Source: Nitrospira sp. MA-1 (GTDB taxonomy: Bacteria > Nitrospirota > Nitrospiria > Nitrospirales > UBA8639). Taken from it: a stretch of DNA of 64,000 nucleotides. The notes beneath the pieces are model-generated. The model ran no database searches and was not told the origin of the DNA. It was given only the letters and a program-made list of their open reading frames with translations. Below are positions 3,526-64,000 of the stretch, one piece after another (position 1 is the first letter of the stretch; every line of letters starts with the position of its first letter). Where the stretch lies: NCBI GenBank assembly GCA_032139905.1, contig JAQJDB010000006.1, positions 1,116,001 to 1,180,000 of the forward strand, given 5' to 3'. Made by a program: the position numbers and the translations under genes.

Positions 3526-3553
3526 ATTGTTCGGTGTAGAAGAAAGGCAGGTG

Positions 3554-4252
3554 ATGGGATTGAATGTTGCTGGGATAGGTTGTCGAACAGCATGCGGATT
3601 TATCAAAGGAACCCTTCTTCTTGCCTGGATGCTTGCAGGCTTGTTCGTCCCAGCAGGAGCGGCTGACCTCACGAATGAGGGAGAAGGCATCGTACAGTCC
3701 ACCTGTGTTGGTTGCCACCGAATTCATGGCGCGCCAATGCCGCGCTCCACAAAACAGGCGCCGGACTTGATCTGGGCTGGTAATAAATATCAACGGGACT
3801 GGTTAGTGGCCTGGCTCCAAAATCCAAAGGAAAAACTCTATCCGGTCGGTTACGATTTTAAGTTCAAGCGCAAGGGGCGGCATCTTGCGCTCTTACCCGG
3901 AGAAGCGGAAAAGGTGGCCGATTTCTTGAGCACCCTGAAGGATGTGAGAATCACCGAAGGCATGATGAAACCGGGCACATCGGCAGAACTGGCCAGGGGG
4001 GAGCAACTTTACCGCGAGCATGTCTGTCAAAATTGCCATTGGACGCCAGCGGACAATCGCCGTGGCTATACGGGTGGGACGTCCAGTACGTCTTTCGTCA
4101 ATATGGGGAATCGTCTCCAGGCGGATTGGGTCTATCGCTTCAATTTGAACCCTGATGACTTTGTTCCAGGAAGTGGAGCCTATATTCCCAAGCCTTCCCT
4201 ACCGGAGACGGATATCTACGCGATCACGGCGTACATGATGACCTTCAGATAA
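3554..4252 (+). CDS. Exported dihaem c-type cytochrome
   Basis: The ATG at 3554 is preceded by a purine-rich AAAGGCAGG. The 232-residue product has a long hydrophobic signal segment (GTLLLAWMLAGLFVPAGA) and two haem motifs: CVGCH at residues 51-55 and CQNCH around residues 158-162. Each motif belongs to a separate cytochrome c-like domain, the first containing DLIWAGNKYQRDWLVAWL and the second ADWVYRFNLNP; the two halves show a loose internal duplication. It resembles the diheme subunits that accompany periplasmic oxidoreductases, but no catalytic subunit is in the window. It sits in the middle of the cytochrome cluster. Only the c-type, exported, dihaem nature is read directly from sequence. 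Confidence 0.87.
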   Translation: MGLNVAGIGCRTACGFIKGTLLLAWMLAGLFVPAGAADLTNEGEGIVQSTCVGCHRIHGAPMPRSTKQAPDLIWAGNKYQRDWLVAWLQNPKEKLYPVGYDFKFKRKGRHLALLPGEAEKVADFLSTLKDVRITEGMMKPGTSAELARGEQLYREHVCQNCHWTPADNRRGYTGGTSSTSFVNMGNRLQADWVYRFNLNPDDFVPGSGAYIPKPSLPETDIYAITAYMMTFR

Positions 4253-4282
4253 CCATAATAGACATCCACAAGAGAGTGACAG

Positions 4283-4666
4283 ATGCACCGGTGCTTCAGT
4301 TGGATGAAACATAAAAACCATATGAGGAATTTTTCGATAGTGGTCCTGGGGCTAGCGTTAATACTGGTCATGACAAGCCCGGCTCTTGCCGGTGGGGGGG
4401 ATGTCGAAAAAGGTCAAACGTTGTTTCGAAAAACTTGCGGGCATTGTCATGGATTAAACGGGAAGGGTGATGGTGCCATGGCCGGATACACCAACCCTCC
4501 TCCCGCCAATTTAACCAGTCAGAAAACTCAGTTTAAGTCAGACGATGAACTCAAAGATGTGATCAAGAATGGTCGACCGGGCACCTCCATGGTCAGCTTT
4601 AAAGATGCCATAGCGGAAGAACAATTAAACGATCTTCTTGCTTATCTCCGTTCCCTGAAACCGTAA
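4283..4666 (+). CDS. Small exported cytochrome c, class I
   Basis: A 127-residue protein with one haem motif, CGHCHG, then GKGDGAMAGYTNPPPANL and a C-terminal ligand region PGTSMVSFKDAI followed by the last helix LNDLLAYLRSL. This is the usual layout of a short cytochrome c (CccA or cytochrome c6-like). The start at 4283 has a weak GAGAG upstream; a later ATG at 4322 would give a more standard signal peptide (MRNFSIVVLGLALILV, cleaved near ALAGG). The mature protein is the same either way. It is a likely mobile periplasmic carrier for the neighbouring multi-domain cytochromes. Confidence 0.87.
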   Translation: MHRCFSWMKHKNHMRNFSIVVLGLALILVMTSPALAGGGDVEKGQTLFRKTCGHCHGLNGKGDGAMAGYTNPPPANLTSQKTQFKSDDELKDVIKNGRPGTSMVSFKDAIAEEQLNDLLAYLRSLKP

Positions 4667-4851
4667 AAGTTGATTCTCAAGATAATGGATTCTCTTCTGA
4701 TTCAATCCTCAGAATGGCAACAATAAAAACCTTTTCATCATTCTACGGACTATCAAGACGGGGACCTGCGTGAGACAGTCAGCTTAGGCCGACCTATTTG
4801 CTAAGCCGAATGGTTTTGGCCAAATGCCGTCGCATGAAAAAGGAGAGAGGC

Positions 4852-25509: not shown

Positions 25510-27342
25510 TTATGCCTTGACGGAAGGGCCTTCCACATGGAGCATCGGAGACAGAGCGTCAGGTCGGATAGGGCGGCTAAAGAAATAACCCTGGTATTGG
25601 TCGCAATTCAGAGTAGTGAGTAGATCAAGTTGCTCCTGATGCTCTACCCCTTCGGCAACAACCGTCAGGGAAAACTCATGCGCCAAATAAATCATCGCGG
25701 AGACCAAGGCCCGGGCTTCAGGGTTGTGGGTAATATCAGTCAGAAAGGAACGGTCGATCTTCAGCTCGTGAATGGGAAAACGTTTCAAATAACTGAGAGA
25801 GGAGTAGCCTGTCCCGAAGTCATCCATAGAGATCTTTGGTCCCAACGCCATCAGGTGGTTCAAGGTCTCCACGGCCTGCTCAGCATTTCCCATTAACAGG
25901 CTTTCCGTCAGCTCGAGTGTCAAATGCTTTGCATCGACCCCCTTGCTCTGTAAGGTCTCCCTTACCAAATCAACGAGATAGCCGTCATTGAATTGCTTGG
26001 CCGATACATTCACCGCGACCTGAATCCATATCCCCTGAGTCTGCCAGCGTGCCAATTGCGAACAGGCTTCCTTCAGCACCCATTCACCCAAAGGGATGAT
26101 CAGGCCGGTCTCTTCGGCTAAAGGAATGAATTGATCCGGAAAGATGAGGGTGCCGTCCGGTTTTTCCCATCGAACCAGCGCTTCGACTCCGATGATGTCC
26201 CCGCTTTTCACCTCAACCTTCGGCTGATAATACAACAGGAGTTGGTCTTCTTCGATGGCATGGCGCAAGTCTGCCTCCATTCGCAGGCGTTCCAGGCTAT
26301 GAGCATTGAGTTCGCTCGAATAAAAATTGAAACCTCCCTTTCCATGAAAGTTGGCCTGGGCGCTCGCCCCAACAGCGCATTGGATGAGGGTGGTCAAATC
26401 TTCGGCATCGGCAGGAAAACTTGCAATACCGATGCTTGGGGAAATGTAGACCTCGGTCCCATCGGCATTGAACGGAGATTCCATGACCTTCAGAATACGG
26501 GAGGCTAACTTCGTCGCATGTTCCGCATGAGCCATCGTCGGACACAATAAAGAGAATTCATCCCCATCCACGCGAAACAGGCTATCCAATTCACTTGAAT
26601 CGGGTATTCCTCGCCCAAATACATCCGATCGGCGCATGCATGAACTCATCCGCTCCGCGATCTGCGTGATGAGCTGATCCGAAATTTCCGGGCCGAAGGT
26701 ATTGGAGAGGCGCTTAAACTGATTGAGTGTGATATGCAACAACACCAGGTTCTCGTGATGGCGTTCCGCTCGCTGTATAAACCATGCCAAGCGGTCAAGA
26801 AACAAACTCCGGTTCGGCAATTTCGTCAAAGCATCATAGTAGGCAAGTTGGTTCTGATAGGCCCGGGCAGCCAGGGTGTTGCGAACCCGGAGTTTCAATT
26901 CACTGGGATCGACCGGCTTGGCCAGGAAATCTGTGGCACCCCGGTCGAGGGCCTGGAGCTTGGTCTCTGCGTCGGAGGAAGAGGTCAGGATAATGACAGG
27001 AAGATGTTTCAGCTTGGGATGGTCCCTCACCTGCCTCAGGATTTCGAATCCCGGGACGTTCGGCATCATCAGATCAAGCAACAGGATATCAGGTCTATGC
27101 TCTTCAATGAGTTTCATAGCCTGGGAAGAATCTTCCACGAGCACAAAATGCTGATAATCAGCATCCTCCAGGTACGCGCGCATGATGTCCATGGTCGTTG
27201 CCTCATCGTCGACCATCATGATCGTAGCCTGAGTCAGCGAGGTTTCATCGCATCCCAATTCATTAAGAACGGGTTTAGCCAAAAGTAGCCCGTCGCTATT
27301 TTCAGAATGTAGTGTTCTCTGATCTGCCTGTTTTGTATCCAT
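25510..27342 (-). CDS. Response regulator with REC, GGDEF and EAL domains
   Basis: A 610-residue cytoplasmic protein. The receiver domain (about 38-155) has the acidic pair in MMVDDEAT, the phospho-acceptor Asp90 in ILLLDLMMP, and Lys141 in FLAKPVD. The GGDEF domain (about 165-340) carries DGDEF at 258-262 instead of GGDEF, so cyclase activity is uncertain. The EAL domain (about 355-600) is well conserved (GVEALVRW at 384-391, DDFGTGYSSLSYLKRF, KIDRSF, EGVEH) and should hydrolyse c-di-GMP. It lies 230 bases downstream of the hybrid kinase, which ends in an HPt domain and so could phosphorylate this receiver. This places c-di-GMP turnover directly downstream of the giant surface protein. Confidence 0.92.
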   Translation of the reverse strand: MDTKQADQRTLHSENSDGLLLAKPVLNELGCDETSLTQATIMMVDDEATTMDIMRAYLEDADYQHFVLVEDSSQAMKLIEEHRPDILLLDLMMPNVPGFEILRQVRDHPKLKHLPVIILTSSSDAETKLQALDRGATDFLAKPVDPSELKLRVRNTLAARAYQNQLAYYDALTKLPNRSLFLDRLAWFIQRAERHHENLVLLHITLNQFKRLSNTFGPEISDQLITQIAERMSSCMRRSDVFGRGIPDSSELDSLFRVDGDEFSLLCPTMAHAEHATKLASRILKVMESPFNADGTEVYISPSIGIASFPADAEDLTTLIQCAVGASAQANFHGKGGFNFYSSELNAHSLERLRMEADLRHAIEEDQLLLYYQPKVEVKSGDIIGVEALVRWEKPDGTLIFPDQFIPLAEETGLIIPLGEWVLKEACSQLARWQTQGIWIQVAVNVSAKQFNDGYLVDLVRETLQSKGVDAKHLTLELTESLLMGNAEQAVETLNHLMALGPKISMDDFGTGYSSLSYLKRFPIHELKIDRSFLTDITHNPEARALVSAMIYLAHEFSLTVVAEGVEHQEQLDLLTTLNCDQYQGYFFSRPIRPDALSPMLHVEGPSVKA

Positions 27343-27571: not shown

Positions 27572-30112
27572 TTATCCGACAGGTTTGCCGGCAGAGGGCA
27601 CTCCCACTGCCACTGGCTTAAGGATGCCCCGATCCCCATGAGCTATGCGTGTCGCCAGATGGTGAAGGTGGTGAAGGTGCTGTTCAATGACTGCCAGGTC
27701 GGCAGCCTTGGCCGCAGCTTCCAGTTCAGCAGCCGGCTTGTTCAACACATCGAATCCCACGGTGCCACCCGCACCCTTCAGCCAATGAGCCAGCTTGGCC
27801 AAGGCCTCCATATCCCGGTTCGAGTAAGCAGCATCCATCGCCTGCAATTGTTCACTCAGCCGATTCACAAAACGGGCAATTACGTTGGCGAATTTCGGGT
27901 TGGTTGCCCCTAACTTGGAAACAATGGGTGAGAAATCCTCTATCGTTGAGGCTTGATGTTGCGAGGACTCCGGCAGGACCGATTGCCTGGACGATTCACC
28001 GACTGGTTGACCTTGGAGGAACTGAGCCAATTTAGCGAGGAACCGGTCGATGTCTATGGGTTTGGTGAGATAGTCGGAAAATCCGGCATCAAATAACTCT
28101 CGCTCGAAGCCTTTCATGGCGTTGGCGGTGAGCGAAATGATGGGGATCTGCAGGCCTCTGTCGCGTAACGTGCGAGTGGCGGTGAGCCCGTCTATCTCAG
28201 GCATCTGCATGTCCATGAGAATGATGTCATACTCGCTGGCCATAGCCATCTCCACTCCCATCAAACCATTTTCCGCTTCGTCGATGCTCAGACCATAACC
28301 CTCCAGGACCACCTTCACGAATTCGCGGTTTTCCGGCCCATCGTCTACGACCAGGATCCTGGCCGATGGAAAGATCCAGTTGGTGTGTTCCTGCATCATG
28401 CCCGAATCGTCGATCGTTAAGGCCTGCTCGGGTGTGACCCAGGCCACTTCCACCGCACTGCCGGCATCCAGTGTGATCTTGAATACACTGCCGACTCCCG
28501 GCTGACTGTCCACCGTAATATCCCCACCCAAGGCGCGTGCGAACTTGCGGCTGATAGCTAATCCAAGGCCGGTTCCACCAAATTTTCTGGTCACCGAGGC
28601 ATCGGCCTGGACAAAATCTTCAAAAATTCGCTGAGTGGCTTCCACATTCATGCCGATACCGGTATCTGCGACATCGATATGGAATTGGAGCATATCTCCG
28701 GCCACCTGATTGGCGTGCGCGGTCACCGTGACCGCGCCGCGCTCAGTGAATTTCACCGCGTTCCCCACGAGGTTGGTGACAATCTGACGTATCCTGCCCG
28801 GGTCGCCGATAATGGTCTCCGGCACGTCATCCGATATCTTGAGTTCGAGTTCAATGCCCTTTTCGTGAGCCCTTACCCCCAGGACCCTGACGACATCCAT
28901 GATCACGAGATAGGGATTGAATCGTACCCGTTCGATCTCCAGATGCCCCGACTCGACCTTTGAGAGATCCAAAATATCGTTTATGAGGTCAAGCAAATGT
29001 TTCCCACTGGAATGGATGATCTCGAGGTGTTTACGGGTTTCAATGGAGTCACGTCCGAAGCCACGTTTGAGCAGGTCTGTGAAACCCAGGATCGCATTCA
29101 TCGGCGTGCGGATCTCATGACTCATATTGGCCAGGAAGGCGCTCTTGGCCTGATTGGCCGCAACGGCCTCCTCTTTGGACTTCAGTAACTCGATTTCGGC
29201 TTCTTCTAATTGCGTCACGTCGTCAAAGCTGACCAGAACGCCGACATTTTTGGCTCCGCTGCCAAGGATAGGGGAGCAGTTAATCATGAAAGTCAGCCGT
29301 GTGTTGTCGGGCAGGGTCAATCGGACACGTTCGTTCTTTTGAGCCTCTCCCGAATTCAATGCGATATGCCAGGGGTGGGTCCCTGATGCCAACGGATGGC
29401 CTTCGATATCAGACCAGGGAAAATCCCCGACTTTGCGACCCAAGAGCGCCTCAGGGGTAGAGGTCAACAGGGTAGCGAAGGCCCGATTGGCCAGCATGAT
29501 TTGCCCTTTGTTGTCGAGCACCAGAAGTCCTTCAGCCATCGTGTCCAGAGCGGAGCGGACACGTTCAGGAACAGCCTGTGATGGATCGAGTTGCTTCAAC
29601 ATTTTTCCCAAATACAAATAAAAGCCGATGAAACACATCAGGGCCACGAACAGCAGAAGTTGTGTCTGTTGCCCGGTGATAAACCCTATCCAGCCTTCGT
29701 CACTTAACGGTCTGAATCGCAGTTCAACTTGACCCCATTTGTCCTCCCCTTCCCAAATAGCGACCGTCACCTGGGTATTAGAAGAATAGTCCGAATTGTC
29801 GTCCCGCCAATGTTGCTCATGGTCCCCAATCGTGACAAGCCGAAGCCCCGATTCCATTCGCAGTCCGGCAGACAATAGGTCTGCGTTTCGGTCCACGACC
29901 AATTGCAAAATTCCTTCCAAGCGGTCAACGTCTTCCTGAGTGATCAGTATTGAGCCGTTGGCGGCGATGGACTCGGCCAAGGCCGCACGTCCCTGGCGAA
30001 TTGCCTCGGTTCGGTCCGGCATCAAACCAAACAAGCTTGCTGTTAGCAACACACTGACCAGGAGACTGACCTGGCCGAAGGCCAGACGGGATTTTGTCGA
30101 AAGAATGTTCAT
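27572..30112 (-). CDS. Membrane hybrid histidine kinase (PAS-HisKA-HATPase-REC-HPt)
   Basis: An 846-residue protein. Two membrane segments (about 11-30, and 141-168 containing LLLFVALMCFIGFYLYL) bracket a roughly 110-residue periplasmic sensor region. Then follow a PAS domain (about 185-300), HisKA with the phospho-His332 in FLANMSHEIRTPMN, HATPase with the N box NLVGNAVKFT near 447-456 and the DTGIGM and GGTGLGLAI boxes, a receiver with Asp634 in ILMDMQMPE, and a C-terminal HPt with His776 in LAKLAHWLKGAGGT. This is a complete phosphorelay ending in a transferable HPt. Its start codon overlaps the stop of the upstream giant protein in an ATGA, so the two are co-translated; the kinase may sense the giant's state. 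Confidence 0.95.
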   Translation of the reverse strand: MNILSTKSRLAFGQVSLLVSVLLTASLFGLMPDRTEAIRQGRAALAESIAANGSILITQEDVDRLEGILQLVVDRNADLLSAGLRMESGLRLVTIGDHEQHWRDDNSDYSSNTQVTVAIWEGEDKWGQVELRFRPLSDEGWIGFITGQQTQLLLFVALMCFIGFYLYLGKMLKQLDPSQAVPERVRSALDTMAEGLLVLDNKGQIMLANRAFATLLTSTPEALLGRKVGDFPWSDIEGHPLASGTHPWHIALNSGEAQKNERVRLTLPDNTRLTFMINCSPILGSGAKNVGVLVSFDDVTQLEEAEIELLKSKEEAVAANQAKSAFLANMSHEIRTPMNAILGFTDLLKRGFGRDSIETRKHLEIIHSSGKHLLDLINDILDLSKVESGHLEIERVRFNPYLVIMDVVRVLGVRAHEKGIELELKISDDVPETIIGDPGRIRQIVTNLVGNAVKFTERGAVTVTAHANQVAGDMLQFHIDVADTGIGMNVEATQRIFEDFVQADASVTRKFGGTGLGLAISRKFARALGGDITVDSQPGVGSVFKITLDAGSAVEVAWVTPEQALTIDDSGMMQEHTNWIFPSARILVVDDGPENREFVKVVLEGYGLSIDEAENGLMGVEMAMASEYDIILMDMQMPEIDGLTATRTLRDRGLQIPIISLTANAMKGFERELFDAGFSDYLTKPIDIDRFLAKLAQFLQGQPVGESSRQSVLPESSQHQASTIEDFSPIVSKLGATNPKFANVIARFVNRLSEQLQAMDAAYSNRDMEALAKLAHWLKGAGGTVGFDVLNKPAAELEAAAKAADLAVIEQHLHHLHHLATRIAHGDRGILKPVAVGVPSAGKPVG

Positions 30113-45391: not shown

Positions 45392-45992
45392 ATTCCACCC
45401 GCATGAGATTGGCCCATCTCCTTATTCGGCCATTGCTTTTAATTACTGTATGCAATAAGGAAAAATTTTCCCATTTGGATTTTTAGGGGTTTGAGGGCGA
45501 AAACGGATTTAGGAACGGGAAGAGTTTGGATGATCGAACTGTATCGGGTCCTTGATTGCCAACAAACCGGGCGGGGTCTGGTTCATAAAGAAAAGGAAAA
45601 AAACTTGAGGGGAAAATGAGGCCAGCCTGAAAAATATTTTTGGGGGGTGCCATGGTGGTCACAATATGACGGTATAAGAAATTAGGAGAAGTTGTTGTGT
45701 ATTGTTTCACCGCTGGACAGGAATGAAATAAATAAAAAAATGTCCGAAACTTAATCTTGACAATAGAAAGGCCGAGAAACAGAACTGGAAGGTTCCAAAG
45801 GGGTAGTTCTGGTTTCTATTGTGCATAAAAATGCTCAAAAGACCAGGAAGGAAAGACGGACTTGAATTGCGGAGAATTCGGCGTGCGGGTCAACGCAGTC
45901 ATTCGGGTGGTGACTATCTCCAGGCAAGTTTTTGGATTCAGGGGATCTGTACACAAATAAATTTTATCGGTTGGATCGTTTATCCTTTTTCT
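45392..45992. other. Divergent control region between giant 2 and the export operon
   Basis: About 600 bases separating minus-strand and plus-strand transcription. It is AT-rich around 45420-45480 and 45600-45760, as expected for two promoters. No specific operator, riboswitch or convincing ORF was identified; an in-frame extension of the TolC gene to 45819 has no signal-peptide character. Confidence 0.4.
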
Positions 45993-47732
45993 ATGGCAGT
46001 CCACATTCAAAAATATCTGGTCGGTGTGGTGGTGATGGGCTTGGCCCTGATTGACTCGGGCTGTGCCGTCATGCCGACTCCACTCACCCAGGACGAAATT
46101 CAACAGCGGGTCCAAGAGGACCTGGCCCAACTCACACAATTTCAGGAACCCGTGGCTCGCCCCATCACGCTGTATGAAGCGATGGCGCGGGCGTTGAAAT
46201 ATAATTTGGAAACGCGGGTCCAGGGATTAAAGGAAATGGTCACGCATCGGCAACTGGATCTGGCGCATTACGATATGCTGCCAAAAGTGGTGGCTGATGC
46301 GGCCTATAATGGACGCAGTAATTTTGCGGGAGCGAGCAGTCAGTCGTTAGAAACGGGCCAGCAATCACTCGTGAGTTCCACCTCATCTGATAAAAATATT
46401 TACACGGCCAATTTAGCCTTAAGCTGGGATGTGCTGGATTTCGGATTGTCCTATGTGCGGGCCGAACAAGCTGCTGACGACGTGCTCATTGCGGAAGAAG
46501 ATAAGCGCCGAATTGCCAATCGGGTTATACAAGAGGTCCGTTCAGCCTTTTGGAAGGCCGTGGGAGCGGAACGGGCGTTGGGTCGCCTGGCGTTCCTTCA
46601 GGATTGGGTGACGCAAGCGCTGGGGGAAGTCCATCTGATCCGGGAACGAGCCTTGGCGGATCCACTCACTTCACTACAATATGAACGAGAACTTCTGAGC
46701 GCGCAACGGGAAATTCAACAGCTCTATCAGGAATTATCGCTATCCAGAATTCACCTGGCCGAACTCATGAACTTGAATCCAGGTGAGCCCTATGAACTGG
46801 CCGTGCCGGACCATCCGCCCCTTGTGTCGAAGGTCGATGAGAAACTGGAAGATTTGGAATACCGGGCACTCATGAATCGTCCGGAACTGCGAAAGGTCGA
46901 CTATCAAAAACGCATTAACGCCAAAGAAACCAAAGCCGCCATCCTGGAATTGCTCCCGAATCTCAATGTGTATATGGGGGGCAATTACGATAGCAACAAT
47001 TTTCTGTTTCATAACAATTGGCTGAATTACGGAGCCAAAGTCAGCTGGAATCTGTTGAATGTATTCCGGCATCCCGTCCGCTTGCAGGTGATTGACGCCC
47101 AGGAGAAGGTGTTGGACATGCAAAGTCTGGCGTTGACGATGGCTCTGATGAGTCAAGTCCATGTGTCGGTGGCGCAATATCATGCGGCGATGAAAGATGC
47201 TGCCACGGGGAAGCGCTACCTCGACACTCAAATGGCCATTGCCGACCAGGTCCAACGTGCCTGGTCCCTTAACCGGCTCAGTGAACATCTGGTCATCCGG
47301 GAAAAGATGCAAGGCCTGGTTGCCGAATTACGGTATGAATCGGCACTGGCCAAATTGGAAATGGCCTATGCCAATGTGTTAGCCGCGATCGGAGAAGACC
47401 CCTTCCCCACGAACATCACTGGAGACGGTGTCGAAGAATTGGCCGTGGCCTTGCAAGAACGTTGGGAATGGCTGGAACGCCCCGAGGTCTTTGCGCAGGT
47501 TCATCCAACTGACGCTCAACCCCAAGCAACAAACACTCAATCCCAAGGGGCCGAGCCTCAACCCCAAGAGACGGTCGGTCAATTTCAAGAGGCTGACGCG
47601 CTACCACCAGAGCCTGAGCCCCAACCCCAAGAGACTGGCGTGCAACCTCAAGAGACTAGCGTGCAACCTCAAGAGACTATCGCGCAATCCCAAGAGACAA
47701 CCACTCAACCCCAAGAGAGAGTTAATCCATGA
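45993..47732 (+). CDS. TolC-family outer-membrane efflux protein
   Basis: A 579-residue protein from the ATG at 45993. The hydrophobic leader (YLVGVVVMGLALIDSGC) ends in a Cys that may be lipidated, although the lipobox is not ideal. The body has the two-fold helical repeats of TolC proteins, seen in the heptad-rich YEAMARALKYNLETRVQGLK, QREIQQLYQELSLSRIHLAE and YRALMNRPELRKVDYQKRIN segments. Residues after about 500 form a Gln/Pro/Glu/Thr-rich tail of short PQET repeats, unusual for TolC. It would make the outer-membrane exit duct. The stop overlaps the next start as ATGA, so it is coupled to the adaptor gene. No ribosome binding site is obvious. Confidence 0.88.
   Translation: MAVHIQKYLVGVVVMGLALIDSGCAVMPTPLTQDEIQQRVQEDLAQLTQFQEPVARPITLYEAMARALKYNLETRVQGLKEMVTHRQLDLAHYDMLPKVVADAAYNGRSNFAGASSQSLETGQQSLVSSTSSDKNIYTANLALSWDVLDFGLSYVRAEQAADDVLIAEEDKRRIANRVIQEVRSAFWKAVGAERALGRLAFLQDWVTQALGEVHLIRERALADPLTSLQYERELLSAQREIQQLYQELSLSRIHLAELMNLNPGEPYELAVPDHPPLVSKVDEKLEDLEYRALMNRPELRKVDYQKRINAKETKAAILELLPNLNVYMGGNYDSNNFLFHNNWLNYGAKVSWNLLNVFRHPVRLQVIDAQEKVLDMQSLALTMALMSQVHVSVAQYHAAMKDAATGKRYLDTQMAIADQVQRAWSLNRLSEHLVIREKMQGLVAELRYESALAKLEMAYANVLAAIGEDPFPTNITGDGVEELAVALQERWEWLERPEVFAQVHPTDAQPQATNTQSQGAEPQPQETVGQFQEADALPPEPEPQPQETGVQPQETSVQPQETIAQSQETTTQPQERVNP
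47505..47729 (+). repeat. Short in-frame repeats encoding PQET-type units
   Basis: The 3' end of the TolC-family gene is built of 21-30 base units encoding variants of QPQET and QSQET. Two adjacent 21-base units around 47637-47680 are nearly identical. The tract is rich in CAA and CCC codons and looks prone to slippage. Confidence 0.7.
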
Positions 47733-48586
47733 TACATCGACACCCTATCACAATTCTGTATTTGGTCCTGAATCTGATCATGCTGACTTCAGGCGTCAGT
47801 CTGGCAAAAGGCGGAGGACGCAGTAGTTTGCCCTCATCGGATCTTCAGACGATTCGGGGCATCGTGAAACCTGTCGTTGAGGCGGTGCTTGCCAGTGAAA
47901 TCCAGGCGTTAGTGAAGCGGATGCCGTTTCGAGACGGAGACGGATTTCATAAGGGAGACCTCCTCGTTGAATTTGATTGTGCCAAATACCGGGCGGAATT
48001 GTCGGCGGCCCAAGCTGATTTAGATGCCAGACAAAAAACGGTCATCAATAACGAGGAGCTGGCCACTCTTCACGGGATTGGCCGGTTGGAAGTGGACATC
48101 TCGCAGGCCGAATTGAAAAAGGCCCAGGCGGTTCTCACAAGAGCACAAGTGATTGTTCAAGGTTGCCGGATTCCTGCCCCTTTTGCCGGACATGTGGTCA
48201 AGACCTTGGTCCACCCTTATGAAAGTGTGAATCCGTACGATGATCTCGTGAGTATTGTCAGTAATCAGGATCTGGATATTGAATTGATTCTCCCGTCGTC
48301 TTCGCTGCGGTGGATCGCCAAGAACAGTCCTTTTTCATTTAGTATCGATGAGACTCAAAAGGACTATCCGGCGGAAGTGGTGGAAATTGGTCCTCGTGTT
48401 GATCCTGTGAGTCAAACCATTCGGGTCTTTGGCCGATTTCACAAACATCCCACAGGTGTCTTAGCCGGTATGAGTGGAAGCGCAAAATTTCCGGAAGGCA
48501 CGTTTCCCACTCAATCAACATTTTCCCCAAGCACGAAGCCTGCAGCCTCACCGACATCCACGAGTAAACAGACTGCCAAACATTAA
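47729..48586 (+). CDS. HlyD-like periplasmic adaptor
   Basis: A 285-residue protein that overlaps the TolC-family stop by four bases. It has a signal or anchor segment (ITILYLVLNLIMLTSGVSLA). The rest is a membrane-fusion adaptor: half a lipoyl motif (FRDGDGFHKGDLLVEFDCAKY), a helical hairpin (AELSAAQADLDARQ to DISQAELKKAQAVLTRAQ), the second half-motif (RIPAPFAGHVVKTLVHPYESV) and a beta-barrel (IELILPSSSLRWIAKNS). The hairpin is short, as in RND-type adaptors. It would link an inner-membrane component to the TolC duct. No pump gene accompanies it; the following genes are further adaptor-like proteins. Confidence 0.88.
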   Translation: MIHRHPITILYLVLNLIMLTSGVSLAKGGGRSSLPSSDLQTIRGIVKPVVEAVLASEIQALVKRMPFRDGDGFHKGDLLVEFDCAKYRAELSAAQADLDARQKTVINNEELATLHGIGRLEVDISQAELKKAQAVLTRAQVIVQGCRIPAPFAGHVVKTLVHPYESVNPYDDLVSIVSNQDLDIELILPSSSLRWIAKNSPFSFSIDETQKDYPAEVVEIGPRVDPVSQTIRVFGRFHKHPTGVLAGMSGSAKFPEGTFPTQSTFSPSTKPAASPTSTSKQTAKH

Positions 48587-48634
48587 CTCCTTCCCGGATC
48601 GACCTCTCTGTTGATCCAAAGGAGGGAAACGAGC

Positions 48635-50080
48635 GTGGTGCAAACAGCAACCCAGACAGAGTCCCCTTCGCGAGGGAGCGGGAAGGAATTCAGACCCTCC
48701 TCCGGTCTGGCCGGCGCCCCTTCCATCGCTTCCAAAAACAAAACGGAAAAAGATTCCAGTATTTTTCTGGCGCTGCTTCAACTGGAAAGTCAGGTCCGCA
48801 AGGCTCAAACGGTAAAAGAACTCTGTTTTCTTCTGGCCAATGAGACCAGACGTCTCGTGGACTTTCGACAGGCCTGTATTTTTTCCATCACGCCGAAGGG
48901 GCGGATGCGGGGAAGGGTGGAAGCGGTGTCCAGTGTGGCCGTGGTTGACCGCAATGCGCCGATGATCACTTGGATTGAACGCGTCATTTCCGAATTATGG
49001 GGACAAGGAAGCCTCAAAGATCCCGGTCCTCTCTCCTTCACTCATTGTTCGACAGAACTCCAACGTGATTGGAAGTCCTTTGCATTTCCGCATGTCCTCT
49101 GGTGTCCCTTAATCTGCGCGGATCAGCAGGTGATTGGTGGTCTGTGGTTGACCAGGGAGATACCCTGGCAAGACGGGGAAGTGCAATTGATCCGGCGGTT
49201 TGCCGAAACGGTGGCTCATGCCTGGCAGGCGCTTGGGGGCACGAAACGGAGAGTGAAAAACTGGAAGGTTCTCAAGAACTGGCTATGGGGAGTGCTGGTG
49301 GTCGTGATGGCGGCCATGTGGCTGCCCGTGCGATTGTCCACGCTGGCTCCGGTGGAAGTGGTGCCGCGGGATCCCTCCGTGGTGACGGCCCCATTGGATG
49401 GGGTGCTGGGAGAAATCCTTGTCCATCCGAATACCCTGGTTCAGACGGGGCAAACCCTCTTTCGCTATGAGGACACCACATTCCGGAATCAATTTGAAGT
49501 GGCGGAAAAGAATCTGTCTGTCACCTGGATGGAGTATCGCAAAGTGTCGCAGGGTGCATTTGTCGACCATGACACCGGTGCGGGCATGCCCGTGCAAGCC
49601 TCGGAAGTCCGGCTGAAAGAAGCCGAGCGGGATTACGCCTGGGATATGTTACAGCAGGTGGAGGTCAAAGCTCCCCGGGCGGGCATTGTGATTTTCACGG
49701 ATAAATCCGAATGGATCGGCAAGCCGGTGGTGGTGGGCGAACGCATTATGGAAGTGGCCGATCCCCAGGAGTTTGAATTGAAAATTGATCTACCGGTGGA
49801 AGACGCGATCGTGTTACGGGAAGGCGCCCAGGTTGAGGTGTTTTTGAATGCCAATCCCTTACGAGCTATACCTGCCCAATTACTCCATGCCAGTTACCAT
49901 GCGAGTATTCTCCCGACCAATGTCCTGGCCTATCGGGTGGAAGCCGCGTTCATGGACCCGCCTGAAGATATTCGAATCGGCTGGCAAGGCACCGCCAAAA
50001 TCTATGGGGAACCGGTCACCCTCTTTTTCCATCTCTTCCGGCGTCCCCTCGGAGTTCTTCGACAAACGCTAGGTTTCTAA
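48635..50080 (+). CDS. GAF domain fused to HlyD-like adaptor
   Basis: A 481-residue protein; the GTG at 48635 is chosen because of the GGAGGG at 48621-48626. A low-complexity N-terminus is followed by a GAF-type domain (about 45-200: LLQLESQVRKAQTVKELCFLLANETRRLVDF to QVIGGLWLTREIPW and an end helix). A membrane span follows around residue 216-236 (WLWGVLVVVMAAMWLPV), then a periplasmic lipoyl/HlyD part (PLDGVLGEILVHPNTLVQTG, APRAGIVIFTDKSEW) and a short beta-barrel. The GAF domain lies on the cytoplasmic side, so the adaptor could respond to a cytoplasmic ligand. The next gene starts immediately after its stop. GAF-adaptor fusions are uncommon. Confidence 0.85.
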   Translation: MVQTATQTESPSRGSGKEFRPSSGLAGAPSIASKNKTEKDSSIFLALLQLESQVRKAQTVKELCFLLANETRRLVDFRQACIFSITPKGRMRGRVEAVSSVAVVDRNAPMITWIERVISELWGQGSLKDPGPLSFTHCSTELQRDWKSFAFPHVLWCPLICADQQVIGGLWLTREIPWQDGEVQLIRRFAETVAHAWQALGGTKRRVKNWKVLKNWLWGVLVVVMAAMWLPVRLSTLAPVEVVPRDPSVVTAPLDGVLGEILVHPNTLVQTGQTLFRYEDTTFRNQFEVAEKNLSVTWMEYRKVSQGAFVDHDTGAGMPVQASEVRLKEAERDYAWDMLQQVEVKAPRAGIVIFTDKSEWIGKPVVVGERIMEVADPQEFELKIDLPVEDAIVLREGAQVEVFLNANPLRAIPAQLLHASYHASILPTNVLAYRVEAAFMDPPEDIRIGWQGTAKIYGEPVTLFFHLFRRPLGVLRQTLGF

Positions 50081-52210
50081 ATGGGTCAGCCAAAGCCTCA
50101 AGAAGACGTTCCCCTTCCTCCCTTGCGCGAAGATCTTCAGATCCTGCCCGGTACCCCCACGCCGGATGGCGTCCCCACCTGGACGATCGTGGATACGGTT
50201 CGAAATCAATTTTTCCAAATTGAATGGTCCGCGTTCCAACTGCTTTCACATTGGCAGGCGGGAACGGCCCAGGGATTGGTGGATCTGGTGACCCGAACCA
50301 CCTCGGCCAAGGTCTCAACCGGAAATGTGATGGAGTTGGTCCAGTTTCTCTATCGAAACAATTTAACCCGGGATTCCTTAGCCGGTGGAAGTCAGGGGTT
50401 CTTGGGGCAGGCCGAACAGGCGAAACAACATTGGCTGCTGAGAGTGCTCCATAACTATTTATTTTTCAGAATTCCCCTATGTAATCCAAACCGGTTCTTA
50501 CGGACAACGCTTCCGTTCGTCACTCCGCTGTTTAGTCGCTGGGCCTTATGGGGTGTGGTCATCCTGGGTGTGATCGGGTGTGTGGGGGTCGTGCGGCAGT
50601 GGGAATCGTTTGCCAATGTGTTTTTATACTTTTTTACGTTTCAAGGGATGACCGGTTATATCATCGGGTTGGTGGCCATAAAAATATTGCATGAACTGGG
50701 GCATGCCTATACCGCCGTTCGATACGGGTGCCGGGTCCCCACGATGGGCCTCGGATTTCTCATTATGGTGCCTGTCCTCTATACCGACACGACCGATTCC
50801 TGGCGGCTCACGGTCCGGAAGCAACGCGCGGCCATTGCCGCGGCGGGAATGGTGGTTGAACTCAGTGTGGCGATGCTCGCGACCTTTTTGTGGAACTTCT
50901 GTCCTGATGGCATTGTCAAAAGTATGCTCTTTGTGTTGGCGACCACCAGTTGGGTGACCGGGCTGCTGATCAATTTGAATCCGCTGCTCCGGTTTGACGG
51001 CTACTATGTCCTCTCCGATTGGCTGGGCGTCCCGAATTTACAATCACGGTCCTTCGGGTTTGGTCGTTGGAAATTACGGGAATGGTTATTTGCCTGGGGA
51101 GATGCTCCTCCGGAACACATGCCCCCGCAACGGCAATCGGTGCTGATCGCCTATGCGTGGGCGGTGTGGGTCTACCGGGCCGTCGTGTTTGTCGGCATTG
51201 CGGTCCTGGTGTATTACTTTTTTTTCAAGGTTTTGGGGGTCATTCTCTTTCTCGTGGAAATAGGCTGGTTCCTGGCATGGCCGGTCTATGAGGAACTGCA
51301 GGTTTGGTGGACACGTCGAACCGCAGTCGTGAAATCCTGGCGGGGGCGGGGAGTGGGGGTCGTGCTCATGGGGTGTGTGCTGGTGAGTGTGATGCCCTTG
51401 GATACGACAGTGGAGATTCCGGCGATTCTTGAGGCTCCGGAACGTATGATTCTGTTTCCACCGGCTCCGGCAATGGTGGTGGAGGTGTTGGTTGAGGAGG
51501 GAGATCTGGTGGAACCCGGTCAAACGCTTTTGATCTTACAGTCGCCACAGGTGGAACATCAGATTGACATTATCGGACATCGCATTGCGGCGTTAGAATT
51601 GCGCGCAGAACGGGAAGTCGCCTATCAGGATGATCGTGATGATCATCTGGTAATTTGGGAGACGCTGGTGGGTGAACGAAAAGCGTTGGCCGGCCTGGTT
51701 ACGCTCCGGGAGCAATTGATCTTGCGTGCTCCGTTCTCCGGCGTGGTGACGGATCTGGCATCTTCACTCCATCCAGGGCTGTGGGTGAATACCGATATGG
51801 CGATGGCGCATGTGATTGGGGAACATCCATCCGTGATGCTGGCCCTCGCCACGGAAAAAGAAAAAGCCCGGCTCACGGTGGGGAATGAAGGATGGTTTTA
51901 TCCGGACGACCCTACGCGACATGTCCGACAGGGGCAGCTTCGGGACCTTCGTCATGTGGACGAATCGGAAATGGCGTTGCCGTATTTAGCCTCCACCTAT
52001 TCCGGAGGCGTTCCAGTGCGCCAGGATGCACGAGGCAGATTGATTCCCGAGCATTCCGTGTACCGGGTGGAACTGGATGTGACGGACAAGGAACCATCCT
52101 GGAATCAGGTTGTGCGAGGGGTGGTCCATGTGAGGGGAAATGGTCAAAGTGTGATGGGGCATCTTTGGGCACGTGCGGCATCCATTATCATTCGGGAAAG
52201 CGGGGCCTGA
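50081..52210 (+). CDS. M50 site-2-type zinc metalloprotease fused to HlyD-like domain
   Basis: A 709-residue protein starting one base after the previous stop. Residues about 12-110 form a winged, PqqD-like domain (PTWTIVDTVRNQFFQIEWSA). Multiple membrane segments follow, with the zinc motif HELGH at 204-208 and the third metal ligand Asp306 in NPLLRFDGYY, the M50 pattern. After a last span (about 425-445, GVGVVLMGCVLVSVMPL) comes a periplasmic HlyD/lipoyl part (PAPAMVVEVLVEEGDLVEPG, helical hairpin, LRAPFSGVVTDLASSL). This architecture resembles the uncharacterised group annotated as putative peptide zinc metalloproteases. It is the only membrane-embedded enzyme in the exporter-like operon, and there is no ABC or RND pump. 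It may process or move the giant protein encoded next. Confidence 0.9.
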   Translation: MGQPKPQEDVPLPPLREDLQILPGTPTPDGVPTWTIVDTVRNQFFQIEWSAFQLLSHWQAGTAQGLVDLVTRTTSAKVSTGNVMELVQFLYRNNLTRDSLAGGSQGFLGQAEQAKQHWLLRVLHNYLFFRIPLCNPNRFLRTTLPFVTPLFSRWALWGVVILGVIGCVGVVRQWESFANVFLYFFTFQGMTGYIIGLVAIKILHELGHAYTAVRYGCRVPTMGLGFLIMVPVLYTDTTDSWRLTVRKQRAAIAAAGMVVELSVAMLATFLWNFCPDGIVKSMLFVLATTSWVTGLLINLNPLLRFDGYYVLSDWLGVPNLQSRSFGFGRWKLREWLFAWGDAPPEHMPPQRQSVLIAYAWAVWVYRAVVFVGIAVLVYYFFFKVLGVILFLVEIGWFLAWPVYEELQVWWTRRTAVVKSWRGRGVGVVLMGCVLVSVMPLDTTVEIPAILEAPERMILFPPAPAMVVEVLVEEGDLVEPGQTLLILQSPQVEHQIDIIGHRIAALELRAEREVAYQDDRDDHLVIWETLVGERKALAGLVTLREQLILRAPFSGVVTDLASSLHPGLWVNTDMAMAHVIGEHPSVMLALATEKEKARLTVGNEGWFYPDDPTRHVRQGQLRDLRHVDESEMALPYLASTYSGGVPVRQDARGRLIPEHSVYRVELDVTDKEPSWNQVVRGVVHVRGNGQSVMGHLWARAASIIIRESGA

Positions 52211-61500: not shown

Positions 61501-63752
61501 TGCGGTATGTGCTGACCGATGGCGATGGGGGCACGAGTGCCAACTACGACACGACGGTGACGATGGCCGCGGTCAATGATGTGCCGGTCCTCACCAACTT
61601 GAGTGGCGACACGCTGGCATACACGGAAGGGGACGGGGCGCAAGTCATCGAGCAGGGGAGCAATGCGGCGGTGACGGATGTGGACTCGGCGGACTTGGAC
61701 ACGGGGACGTTGACGGTCTCCTTCCAAGCGGGCAGTGACAGTGCGGAGGATGTGCTGGCCATTCGCGATCAGGGCACGGGGGCGGGGCAGATTGGCGTCA
61801 GCGGCAGTACCGTCACCTATCAAGGCGTGACCATCGGCACCGTGACCGGCGGCAGTGGGGGCACCGACCTGGTCATCACGTTGAATGCCAATGCCGAGGC
61901 GACGGCGGCGGGGGCGCTGGTGCAGAACATCACCTATGAGAACACGGACACGGCCAACCCGACATTGGGCAGCCGGACGGTGCGGTATGTGCTGACCGAT
62001 GGCGATGGGGGCACGAGTGCCAACTACGACACGACGGTGACGATGGCCGCGGTCAATGATGTGCCGGTGAATACGGTGCCGGGGGCGCAGGTGGTGGCCG
62101 AAGATACGGCGCTCACGATCACGGGCCTCTCGGTGACGGATGTGGACGGCAACTTGAGTGCGGTGCAGTTGGCGGTCGGGCAAGGGACGGTAACGGTGAG
62201 TGGGGCGGCGACGATCAGTGCGGGGGCCAATGGCACGAGTTCGCTGACCCTCTCGGGCAGTGAGGCCGACATCAATGCGACCTTGGCCTCGGTGAGCTAT
62301 CAAGGCAACCTCAACTATACGGGCGCGGACACGCTGACGGTGACGAGTACGGACGGCAACAGTGCGACGGACGTGGATATGGTGGGCATCACGGTGACGG
62401 GGGTCAATGATGCGCCGGTGCTTACCAGTGACGGGGGTGGGCCGACCGCGGCCGTCAATGCACCAGAAAACCAAACGGGCGTGACGACGGTGACCGCGAC
62501 CGATGTGGATCTGCCGGCGGACACCCTGACCTATACAATCACCGGCGGGGCGGATGCGGCGCGGTTCAGCCTCGATCCCACCAGCGGGGTGTTGACGTTC
62601 ATCGTCGCCCCCGACATTGATGCACCGACCGATGCGGGTGCCAATAACGTCTATGACGTGGTGGTACAGGTGAGTGACGGCAACGGCGGTGCGGATTCCC
62701 AAGCAATCGCCGTGACAGTGACGGATGCCAACGATGTCCCAATAATTACCAGTAACGGCGGGGGGGCGACGGCGGTGGTTAATGTGGCCGAAAACCAAAC
62801 CTCGGTGACGACGGTGACCGCGACCGATGTGGATGTGCCGGGGGATACATTGACCTTTACGATTTTAGGTGGGGCGGATGCGGCGCGGTTCAGCCTCGAT
62901 CCCACCAGCGGGGTGTTGACCTTCACGGTGCCCCCAGACTTTGAAACGCCGGCCGACGCCGACGCGAATAATGTCTATGAGGTCACCGTACAGGTGAGTG
63001 ATGGCAACGGCGGGGTGGATTCTCAAATGATTCAGGTGACCGTCACGGATGTTCAGGAAGGCCTGTCCCAACTGCCTCCACCGCAACCAGGTCCCACGCC
63101 CACGCCTGCACCCAGTCCTCCGCCAATTCCGGAGTCGCCACTTGATACCAATACTTCCCCCATGGGTACACCCCAAATCGAGTCTCCGGGTCCCTTTGCT
63201 GGTCAATCCTCACCGGGACGGGATCTTTCGCGTCATCCTCATCTTCAGCCGGCTCCAGACTGGAACAGAGTCTTGGAGATTGCCCCGTTCCTGCGCCCAG
63301 CGGCTTTTGAAACCACCTCGGAACAAATTCTATCGTACGCTCCGGCACCGGTGCTGCTCTCTCATATCGAACTGGGTCATGAATTTCTTCAACAGTTGAA
63401 TGCATTTTCCGATCAGTTAGCAGAGACCACCCAACAAACTATCGACGAACGGTCCTTGTTCGTCAAAATGATGGAATATACGGGGCTTGGTGTCTCGGGA
63501 GTCCTCGTGGCGTGGCTGGTGAGAAGTGGGACGCTGGTGGCGAGCATGTTGGCTGCGCTCCCGGCCTGGCGCAGCTTTGACCCTATTGCAATTCTGGATA
63601 TGGATAAACAGGGTCGAGAGAATTTGACGAAAAAGATGAAAGAAGCCGCAGAGAAAGAAGCCTGGGAGCATCAAGGATTGGATCGGATATTAGACCAGAA
63701 GAATATCAAATCTCCTCCACCTTTCTCGACTGTTCACCCAGGGTCCTCATGA
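52572..63752 (+). CDS. Giant surface protein 3 (LEPR/DUF4347, triple beta-helix, tandem repeats)
   Basis: A 3726-residue protein, 50 residues longer at the N-terminus than giants 1 and 2 before ALEPRILFDGA. DUF4347 (about 115-285) has VHLIGEG and IYGCNFGRGQAG. Next are three modules, each a SLRQAI/SLREAI entry, a beta-helix of NYIGTD-type coils, an NNLQNFPVL or NNLQNYPVL exit and an Ig-like cap (53430-54735, 54739-56715, 56720-59290). A cadherin-like domain, five identical 160-residue repeats (59651-62050), a second copy of the first domain, two DUF-type cadherin repeats and a Pro-rich linker follow. The C-terminus has a hydrophobic VAWLVRSGTLVASMLAALPAW and a basic helical tail. It overlaps the following sensor gene as ATGA. 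No signal peptide. Function: probable surface fibre. Confidence 0.9.
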   Translation: MNEYRHMKHLLCKPATLEAGTAPKKGNSATHKKRKLTQPPTPPTAGLTGTFIALEPRILFDGAALATGAEVVQDTTTQDQPGVPDPQGETSTDSTHTDSADQDTLWTSGLSPSAPSDRKEIVFIDTRVEHYQTLMDGIDPAAEVILLDARRDGIEQIAEALKGRSDIDAVHLIGEGTEAELYLGTAFLTNDSISDQYAALLSQIGQSLSAEADLLIYGCNFGRGQAGLSAMQALADLTGADIAASTDRTGHVSEYANWQLEVSTGFIETSIMIGQATQDTWEGVLATYTVTNTNNSGAGSLRQAILDANGNPGTDTISFNIALTDPNHLYYRDNGVGGTFGAPVATTLSDAAITDFDADYMAGTARSWYRITLSGSDLNVTQGVIIDGSTQAGYDAAKGPIIELNAAGVASGDPNGLTLTTGASTVRGLVINLAGDDAIEIDVNAGGSTIVGNYLGTDVSGLQTTFGNRYGITVKSDDNTIGGTTAADRNIIAGNSTGGDSFGIGFWQNADSNVVQGNYIGVGADGTTAMGNRQGITFQNTAHDNMIGGEGIDEGNIIANNSMNGVDVIAGTGNAIVRNSIYSNTLLGINLGTAGITANDSGDGDSGANNLQNFPVLTRAVTDSTGMISIDGTLNSTASTNFRIEFFRNTTGDASGNGEGETYLGFTEVTTNGSGNATFNVTLSAIVSSGNAICATATVKIGASTYRDTSEFALNVAATAGTLTVTTTNDVSNGDTSSVAALIASDGGDGISLREAITAANNTAGTDTIAFNISGSGPHTINVLSALPTISDAVLIDGWSEPDFSGTPVIELNGTSAGGGVHGLTISTGSGSTIRGLVINRFGSDALNIDADNVTIVGNYLGTDVTGTVDLGNGDDGIDYDGNNGIIGGLTAVERNIISGNTGDGINFGGSSTGSVVWGNYIGTDVTGTLGVGNTANGILISGSNNTIGGATAFARNIISGNGGHGIYLNGAGADGNTIYGNYIGTNSGGTAALGNTGDGIRLDTGASANFIGDGASGVGNVISANTGYGITLIGSTTSANSMTANLIGLNAAGTSVTGLLNGEDGIYISSAAGNTIGGSTVNARNIINAAFGKAAIDISGSLSVGTIVRGNFIGTNSAGTTRLSGSSFGISVGSNAVNTVIGGTSANDANVVAGYAVTGISIGVSSTGTTIQGNYIGTDVSGTLDLTTGLYGISVQNGLTNTLIGGVVAGAGNTIAFQGSNGIHAFASAGTGIAILGNEMYGNNGLGIDLNADGVTANDVGDGDTGPNNLQNFPVLTSANTDGAANVYVAGTLNSTATTNYRIEFFASTTPDGSGYGEGEVYIGFINVTTDGSGNVNFFQNLTAAVSAGTSITATATVDLGGGNYGDTSEFGANIIALNMSTLVVDTTSDVLDGNTSSISNLLSNRGADNQISLREAITAVNNTAGTDTIHFNILDVLVGGAHTIQVGNPGDGSNGALPDITGVVIIDGTAEPDFGSTPIIELNGTSAGAVDGLRLITGSDGSTIRGLVINQFSSQGIEINNSDGNTIAGNYIGTDVTGTVDLGNGSAGLYIFSAQNTIIGGTIAADRNLISGNQGSGILRQGSNGGNVIQGNYIGTDATGTLDLGNTQNGIAFSGSGTDTIGGALAGAGNVISGNTMTGISIGAGADGVTIQGNFIGTNAAGTGALANSSDGISVNANNTQIGGSTVLARNVISGNTSDGIELSGDNNIVEGNYIGLDGTGMVALGNSGHGVWITSGAISNVVGGNMAGAKNYISGNSGSGVFMDAGAGFNTISGNTIGLAVDGLTDRGNVGHGVFTNTGNNTIGGTTINERNVIGGNAGDGIHIATGGDTNTIIGNYIGLDEGGTLDRGNDGDGIYLASEDNLIGGTTTAERNVISGNTLAGVYLTGATVSPNTLSGNYIGTNWDGSAAVANSIGITVENGTNNIIGGLVAGAGNLISGNNVHGIYLNGGGTTGTQIYRNTIGTNAAVNAKLANGFDGIRIEGGAGTAMIGDGLGNGNVIAGNSQRGISLTSGNSNNIIQGNYIGTNLLGASNLGNTMSGIEIGNFVSSHNLVGGTTAGQGNVIAYNDDGIIVISGTGDSIGNSILGNSIHSNLGLGVNLVDAGDLINGITANDVGDGDTGSNNLQNYPVLTSVTTTGTQVTINGTLNSSASTTYRIEIFASVIADGTAYGEAERYLGSATVTTDGSGNGTISSVLPAVVAGGEFVTATATVIDNVGQVGIDDALAYGDTSEFAQNVVANTAPVNTVPGSQVVDEDTALTITGLSVTDVDGNLSTVQLAVTQGTVTVMVSGAATISAGANGTSTLTLSGSQTDINATLASVSYQGNLNYTGADTLTVTSTDGNSATDVDGVGITVTAVNDVPVLTNLSGDTLAYTEGDGAQVIEQGSNAAVTDVDSADLDTGTLTVSFQAGSDSAEDVLAIRDQGTGAGQIGVSGSTVTYQGVTIGTVTGGSGGTDLVITLNANAEATAAGALVQNITYENTDTANPTLGSRTVRYVLTDGDGGTSANYDTTVTMAAVNDVPVLTNLSGDTLAYTEGDGAQVIEQGSNAAVTDVDSADLDTGTLTVSFQAGSDSAEDVLAIRDQGTGAGQIGVSGSTVTYQGVTIGTVTGGSGGTDLVITLNANAEATAAGALVQNITYENTDTANPTLGSRTVRYVLTDGDGGTSANYDTTVTMAAVNDVPVLTNLSGDTLAYTEGDGAQVIEQGSNAAVTDVDSADLDTGTLTVSFQAGSDSAEDVLAIRDQGTGAGQIGVSGSTVTYQGVTIGTVTGGSGGTDLVITLNANAEATAAGALVQNITYENTDTANPTLGSRTVRYVLTDGDGGTSANYDTTVTMAAVNDVPVLTNLSGDTLAYTEGDGAQVIEQGSNAAVTDVDSADLDTGTLTVSFQAGSDSAEDVLAIRDQGTGAGQIGVSGSTVTYQGVTIGTVTGGSGGTDLVITLNANAEATAAGALVQNITYENTDTANPTLGSRTVRYVLTDGDGGTSANYDTTVTMAAVNDVPVLTNLSGDTLAYTEGDGAQVIEQGSNAAVTDVDSADLDTGTLTVSFQAGSDSAEDVLAIRDQGTGAGQIGVSGSTVTYQGVTIGTVTGGSGGTDLVITLNANAEATAAGALVQNITYENTDTANPTLGSRTVRYVLTDGDGGTSANYDTTVTMAAVNDVPVNTVPGAQVVAEDTALTITGLSVTDVDGNLSAVQLAVGQGTVTVSGAATISAGANGTSSLTLSGSEADINATLASVSYQGNLNYTGADTLTVTSTDGNSATDVDMVGITVTGVNDAPVLTSDGGGPTAAVNAPENQTGVTTVTATDVDLPADTLTYTITGGADAARFSLDPTSGVLTFIVAPDIDAPTDAGANNVYDVVVQVSDGNGGADSQAIAVTVTDANDVPIITSNGGGATAVVNVAENQTSVTTVTATDVDVPGDTLTFTILGGADAARFSLDPTSGVLTFTVPPDFETPADADANNVYEVTVQVSDGNGGVDSQMIQVTVTDVQEGLSQLPPPQPGPTPTPAPSPPPIPESPLDTNTSPMGTPQIESPGPFAGQSSPGRDLSRHPHLQPAPDWNRVLEIAPFLRPAAFETTSEQILSYAPAPVLLSHIELGHEFLQQLNAFSDQLAETTQQTIDERSLFVKMMEYTGLGVSGVLVAWLVRSGTLVASMLAALPAWRSFDPIAILDMDKQGRENLTKKMKEAAEKEAWEHQGLDRILDQKNIKSPPPFSTVHPGSS
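59305..59640 (+). repeat. Flanking domain copy A beside the 480-bp array
   Basis: Encodes a module starting APVNTVPGSQVVDEDTALT and containing ISAGANGTS and NYTGADTLTVTSTDGNSA. A close but not identical copy is found at 62051-62403, so the 480-bp array is bracketed by direct repeats. Confidence 0.85.
59651..62050 (+). repeat. Five tandem 480-bp perfect repeats
   Basis: Five consecutive 480-base units starting at 59651, 60131, 60611, 61091 and 61571 read identically by eye, each encoding the same 160-residue domain from VNDVPVLTNLSGDTLAYTEG to SANYDTTVTMAA. A sixth start at 62051 diverges after VNDVPV. The absence of even synonymous differences implies very recent amplification or ongoing gene conversion. 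Confidence 0.95.
62051..62403 (+). repeat. Flanking domain copy B beside the 480-bp array
   Basis: Second copy of the module at 59305-59640 (starts VPVNTVPGAQVVAEDTALT). Differences are scattered single bases plus a six-base deletion in the VTVMVSG region, so it is older than the identical array it borders. Confidence 0.85.
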
Positions 63753-64000
63753 AACGACTGACACCCATTTTTTGGATGAGTCTGGGTTTGGTATCCCTTA
63801 CTCTGAGTATCCTCTTAATCTGTGACCTGATGATCGGCCTCATTCCGGACCAAGCCGCTCAAATCTTTTCCTATCGGCAAAAGTATAGCGAAGCCATAGC
63901 CGTTCAGTATTCCATTCTGGCGCAGAGGGAGGATGACCAGGCCATCCAGCAGGCCTTGGATCTGTTAGTTGAACGGAATGCGGATATCCAATCAGTGGCC
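63749..64000 (+). CDS. Membrane sensor (probable histidine kinase), N-terminal fragment
   Basis: The ATG at 63749 overlaps the giant 3 stop as ATGA and the frame stays open to the window end (84 codons). The fragment starts with a membrane segment (FWMSLGLVSLTLSILLICDLMIGL) and continues with PDQAAQIFSYRQKYSEAIAV and LLVERNADIQSV. These match in spacing and sequence the N-terminus of the hybrid kinase behind giant 1 (GLMPD, ESIAANGSIL, LVVDRNADLLS). It is therefore most likely the start of the giant 3 partner kinase; the catalytic domains are beyond the window. Confidence 0.8.
   Translation, partial: MKRLTPIFWMSLGLVSLTLSILLICDLMIGLIPDQAAQIFSYRQKYSEAIAVQYSILAQREDDQAIQQALDLLVERNADIQSVA

Follow-up and report, generated by a model that had tools for sequence, protein, structure and literature searches.

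A sensor diguanylate cyclase gene coupled to a giant DUF4347 protein in Nitrospira sp. MA-1, and its sensor shared with a hybrid kinase

What is the gene that overlaps the end of a giant protein gene in Nitrospira sp. MA-1, and what might it have to do with the giant? The stretch of DNA analysed here—the window—comprises 64,000 nucleotides (positions 1,116,001 to 1,180,000 of contig JAQJDB010000006.1, assembly GCA_032139905.1) and includes three genes for very large DUF4347 proteins, which we call giants 1, 2 and 3 (Table 1). An open reading frame (ORF) starts with ATG at position 63749, overlaps the stop codon of giant 3 by four bases (ATGA), and has run for 84 codons when the window ends. 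From these codons a first-pass annotation had taken the gene for a second kinase, related to the one behind giant 1. The contig runs on, so the frame can be read to its end at contig position 1,181,263, which is 1263 bases past the window.

The complete frame encodes 504 residues, arranged as a transmembrane (TM) segment, a periplasmic domain, a second TM segment, a PAS domain and a GGDEF domain. A Pfam search of the protein gives PAS (residues 185-301, approximately) and GGDEF (PF00990, residues 320-479, E 7.9e-44) only, with neither HisKA nor HATPase_c. The GGEEF signature is intact at residue 399, as is the RxxD inhibitory site (I-site, here RPLD) five residues ahead of it (RPLDIIGRYGGEEF). 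By domain and motif tests the gene is a diguanylate cyclase and, to judge from the motifs, the enzyme should be active and inhibited by its product. The full frame rules out a second kinase; what survives of the first-pass annotation is its claim of a related sensory partner coupled to giant 3.

That relationship lies in the N-terminal sensor. The 84-residue parts alone of the cyclase and of the kinase behind giant 1 align with a score of 120, against a mean of 25.8 and a maximum of 47 among 1000 shuffles, and the first 180 residues score 264 (shuffled mean 30.3, maximum 50). The sensors are 36% identical over 201 residues, with a Z of about 50 against shuffles, and a BLASTP match over residues 1-318, PAS domain included, reaches 35% identity (E 1e-57). 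The three sequence elements first used to link the proteins are all present, as GLMPD/GLIPD, ESIAANGSIL/EAIAVQYSIL and VDRNAD/VERNAD, and the first hydrophobic segment occupies similar positions (residues 10-28 and 14-32). Only two copies of the sensor occur in the whole genome, each overlapping a giant's stop codon through ATGA, and only three DUF4347 giants, all within the window or starting in it; two of the three giants do carry a related partner, as had been proposed.

An AlphaFold model of the sensor, built on a 62-row alignment (predicted local distance difference test, pLDDT, 81), runs from a TM segment through two helices (residues 34-58 and 62-75) and four strands (79-86, 91-95, 114-121 and 124-133) to a second TM segment—in the model, the two N-terminal helices lie on a four-stranded sheet between TM helices, which is the extracytoplasmic PAS/sCache layout. 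Foldseek ranks the periplasmic domain of CdgS9, a LapD orthologue, first (4u64, E 4e-3) and Cache chemoreceptor domains next; VIA-align gives a Z of 12.2 against YycG/WalK (root-mean-square deviation 3.1 over 108 residues) and about 10 against CitA and LapD. At the sequence level the sensor falls below the curated Pfam cut-offs for CHASE8, sCache_4 and LapD_MoxY_N (best E 0.011, 0.023 and 0.018, for a few members only), and a search against PDB chains returned chance matches only, to fumarate reductase cytochrome b. On the modelled structure, the sensor is an extracytoplasmic PAS/sCache-type domain with no Pfam family of its own at curated cut-offs.

The giants, for their part, share both ends. 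All three begin with LEPRILFDGA and DUF4347, continue in repeat domains, and carry a C-terminal segment that in relatives fits LSxGYVxWLxRxGxLLxSLLSSLPAWxxxDPLPVL; its W, R, P-x-W and P residues are invariant in 24 to 46 relatives. AlphaFold models this tail as a long helix, one helix of membrane length (21 residues) and a further helix (pLDDT 71). The tails and the sensors come in matching types, K and D, and the K tail of this genome has a mean identity of 48% to proteobacterial K tails against 29% to its own D tail. No sensor gene lies behind giant 2, whose tail is of the K type, and two sister genomes hold extra giants like it, with K- and with D-type tails; a sensor common to several giants would fit these cases. 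The tails (63270-63749 and aligned relatives) have a short conserved ending beyond the membrane helix, for example QGLDRIL, DSVESLF or ESLESMV, which is possibly a docking motif.

The coupling of giant and sensor genes recurs well beyond this genome. In the family, wherever the gene upstream of a sensor gene is readable, it is in almost all cases a tail-bearing ORF that directly precedes the sensor gene, mostly with the 4-base ATGA overlap; one locus has an unrelated-looking short frame there, and three contigs end before the upstream gene. The 147 genomes examined from the order contain 69 sensors, and 56 of these follow a tail on the same strand at a distance of 105-333 bases, where about 0.01 would be expected by chance; the presence of tail and sensor agrees from genome to genome (Fisher p 1e-23). 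The 13 unpaired sensors include 8 in genomes with a tail elsewhere. Several Nitrospira genomes with an unpaired kinase hold an intact tail-bearing ORF at another place. One scan of the genomes of 84,980 species gave 79 sensor loci, mainly in Nitrospirota, Gamma- and Betaproteobacteria, and most have a tail-bearing giant directly upstream. Of the 34 strong sensors in 22 further, mostly proteobacterial genomes with other scan loci, 28 have a tail as their partner—a count made by reading two position lists side by side—and two of the six unpaired sensors lie near contig ends.

Gene order is conserved along with the coupling, in two recurrent operon types. The first consists of a giant, a hybrid kinase and a REC-GGDEF-EAL protein, and is found in Nitrospirota, Beta- and Gammaproteobacteria (Aquabacterium, Leptothrix, Marinobacter, Thiobacillus and others have the REC-GGDEF-EAL gene after the kinase); in the second, a giant is followed by a sensor-GGDEF or sensor-GGDEF-EAL protein. 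An enzyme of cyclic di-GMP (c-di-GMP) is present in both. A Thiotrichales metagenome-assembled genome (MAG) carries both forms on opposite strands, as the window does, and several Aquabacterium genomes also have both. The outputs fused to this one sensor are GGDEF, GGDEF-EAL, hybrid kinase and plain kinase; in Nitrospira the same sensor sits on a PAS-HATPase kinase of 636-641 residues. Since the cyclase follows giant 3 and a REC-GGDEF-EAL protein follows the giant 1 kinase, both giants are linked to c-di-GMP enzymes.

Giants and partners have also been inherited together. Sensor and tail distances correlate strongly (Mantel r 0.91 overall, against a maximum of 0.14 in 2000 permutations; 0.92-0.93 within groups), and both trees divide into two large groups, the same for sensor and tail. 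The tail, however, is matched just as closely by the cytoplasmic part of the protein as by the sensor region, and the agreement of the trees is thus a sign of co-inheritance and no proof of an interface. The earlier suggestion that the sensory region has co-evolved with the giants holds only as co-inheritance; as a statement about the sensory region in particular, it is unsupported.

What might such a pair do? c-di-GMP is the usual signal for attachment, and we propose, giving it about an even chance, that giant 3 and the cyclase are a two-gene module in which the sensor diguanylate cyclase monitors the giant anchored in the membrane and adjusts c-di-GMP to its state. The giant would be a surface protein anchored by its single conserved C-terminal transmembrane tail; the periplasmic PAS/sCache-like domain of the sensor, held between two transmembrane helices, would register, probably close to the tail, whether the giant is there at all and whether it is exported, tethered or under load. 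The sensor would then switch its PAS-GGDEF output, and attachment would be tuned through c-di-GMP. The giant 1 kinase would use the same sensor with a phosphorelay output, most likely into the neighbouring REC-GGDEF-EAL protein, and in that way giants 1 and 3 would both lead to c-di-GMP. We favour this view because gene order, gene overlap, the conservation of the tail with the sensor and the matching types suggest a link at the membrane, and because the output is c-di-GMP. A bolder form of it, in which the tail itself is the input—adhesion, export or pulling on a protein of several thousand residues acting directly on c-di-GMP or a phosphorelay, by way of a plug-in sensor with varied outputs in two phyla and tail types as its address—strikes us as doubtful.

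Several observations weigh against a sensor that reads its giant. With the cytoplasmic part controlled for, the partial correlation of sensor and tail vanishes in the D type (r -0.05), and for hybrid kinases of the K type it is weak (0.32), below the 0.46 between tail and cytoplasmic part; a high value (0.86) remains in 13 Nitrospira pairs alone. Apart from these 13 pairs, co-evolution specific to tail and sensor is unsupported by the partial Mantel correlation. In five Nitrospira loci the giant is frameshifted, with recognisable tail remnants (such broken giants were seen up to about 400 bases ahead of the sensor gene), and the kinase is intact. A Myxococcales MAG has a sensor cyclase (positions 3250-4749 of its locus) behind an HlyD-like gene, with no giant tail detectable in its genome. 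The topology of the tail cannot be read firmly from the net charge around it, gene adjacency would arise equally from simple co-regulation, and PAS/sCache folds usually bind small ligands.

The last point leads to the main rival, which we consider a serious possibility, if short of an even chance: the sensor binds a small molecule or otherwise detects an environmental cue such as the state of the envelope, and the giant is the regulated product. Its place in the operon would raise c-di-GMP where the giant is made, as inside-out control, with the giant expressed or exported when attachment is wanted. The resemblance of the sensor to the ligand-binding extracytoplasmic PAS/sCache domains of CitA, DcuS and Tlp3 favours this explanation, as do the kinases retained beside decayed giants and the cytoplasmic parts, whose agreement with the tail equals that of the sensor; however, it sits less easily with a partner tied across phyla to the last segment of the giant and to one gene order, with tail type matching sensor type. 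The tie between tail and partner also holds while the middle repeats of the giants and the output module vary, and most of the unpaired sensors in the 147-genome set lie, as noted above, in genomes that still have a tail.

Plain co-transcription, in which horizontal transfer spread the two genes together and no function links sensor and giant, would account for the congruent tail and sensor trees, as expected of a transferred block; but overlapping genes kept adjacent over two phyla, the genome-level co-occurrence given above and the persistence of both tail/sensor types together in several genomes make it very improbable. Least probable, and very unlikely in our judgement, is a Lap-like system in which a membrane protein governs, through its periplasmic domain, whether the giant is retained or released by proteolysis: the top Foldseek match to CdgS9 speaks for it, and against it stand the missing LapG, an intact GGDEF without EAL where LapD is a degenerate GGDEF-EAL receptor, and a kinase form without a c-di-GMP-binding module.

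The likeness to LapD-LapG-LapA (and to BrtA and the Dvh-type) is nevertheless worth setting out: these systems too have a large cadherin/VCBS-type surface protein, a co-encoded inner-membrane protein with a periplasmic PAS-like domain, and c-di-GMP (PMC12805831, PMC13090378). A search for the LapG protease (Peptidase_C93, PF06035) found no match in the MA-1 genome, whereas a Caulobacter control gave one, and this absence rules out membership of the Lap system. In addition, the partner here should, from its sequence, make c-di-GMP or feed a phosphorelay, whereas LapD binds c-di-GMP; the giant here has a C-terminal membrane tail, and the presumed direction of signalling is outside-in. Periplasmic-sensor diguanylate cyclases of the GcbC and DgcN/YfiN kind have the same layout of TM, periplasmic sensor, TM and GGDEF, but here the gene partner is a giant presumed to be a surface protein, the sensor also occurs in fusion with kinases, and it scores below the Pfam cut-offs noted above. 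The kinase pair recalls CfcA-CfcR of Pseudomonas putida, a multidomain membrane hybrid histidine kinase with a GGDEF/EAL response regulator (PMC6849547); the sensor differs, and the pair here follows a DUF4347 giant whose membrane tail is conserved. The closest known systems are sensor cyclases of the GcbC/YfiN kind and kinase/GGDEF-EAL regulator pairs, to which a giant partner with a diagnostic membrane tail is added.

How surface contact is converted into c-di-GMP is an open question for most species. One review lists three apparatuses for sensing surfaces, including the type IV pilus and the flagellum (PMC8846402). With their coupled genes, wide distribution and interchangeable outputs, the giant and its c-di-GMP sensor offer a defined candidate, open to testing, for signalling driven by adhesins in nitrifiers and in many of the Proteobacteria. 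No description of the pair was found in the open-access literature on DUF4347, LEPR-XLL, giant adhesins with hybrid kinases and Nitrospira adhesins, which does not in itself prove novelty.

Table 1. Positions in the window of the two sensor genes, the giants and their neighbours.
Feature	Position	Strand	Description
Sensor diguanylate cyclase, first 84 codons	63749..64000	+	First TM segment and start of periplasmic domain
Giant 3, 3726 residues	52572..63752	+	LEPRILFDGA motif, DUF4347, beta-helix/cadherin/Ig-like repeats, C-terminal membrane tail
Giant 3 membrane tail, D type	63486..63554	+	Around LVAWLVRSGTLVASMLAALPAW; single helix in AlphaFold model, residues 75-95 of tail fragment
Hybrid sensor kinase behind giant 1, 846 residues	27572..30112	-	Same sensor, then PAS-HisKA-HATPase-REC-Hpt
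Kinase sensor region, residues 1-182	29567..30112	-	TM, extracytoplasmic PAS/sCache-like domain, TM (predicted by AlphaFold and fold matches)
REC-GGDEF-EAL response regulator	25510..27342	-	Adjoins kinase on same strand; same order in Beta- and Gammaproteobacteria
Giant 1, 1973 residues	30109..36030	-	DUF4347, repeats, K-type membrane tail; 4-base overlap with kinase start
Giant 2, 2873 residues	36574..45195	-	DUF4347, repeats, K-type membrane tail; no sensor gene behind it
Exporter-like genes upstream of giant 3	45819..52210	+	Four genes, linked to giants in relatives
TolC-like OEP	45819-47732	+	Exporter-like cluster
HlyD	47729-48586	+	Exporter-like cluster
GAF-HlyD	48611-50080	+	Exporter-like cluster
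M50 protease-HlyD fusion	50081-52210	+	Exporter-like cluster

The series on the plus strand starts with the TolC-like gene, followed by two genes of HlyD type and the M50 protease-HlyD fusion, and has giant 3 and the cyclase as its last two genes; giants 2 and 1, the kinase and the response regulator lie on the opposite strand. No ATP-binding cassette (ABC) ATPase is encoded among the genes of the exporter-like cluster. The cluster is linked to DUF4347 giants in Nitrospirota, and of its members only the M50-HlyD protein was recognised close to giants in Proteobacteria. Within giant 3, the C-terminal third holds five near-identical repeats of about 160 residues each (VPVLTNLSGDTLAYTEGDGAQVIEQGSNAAVTD...), a sign of recent amplification.

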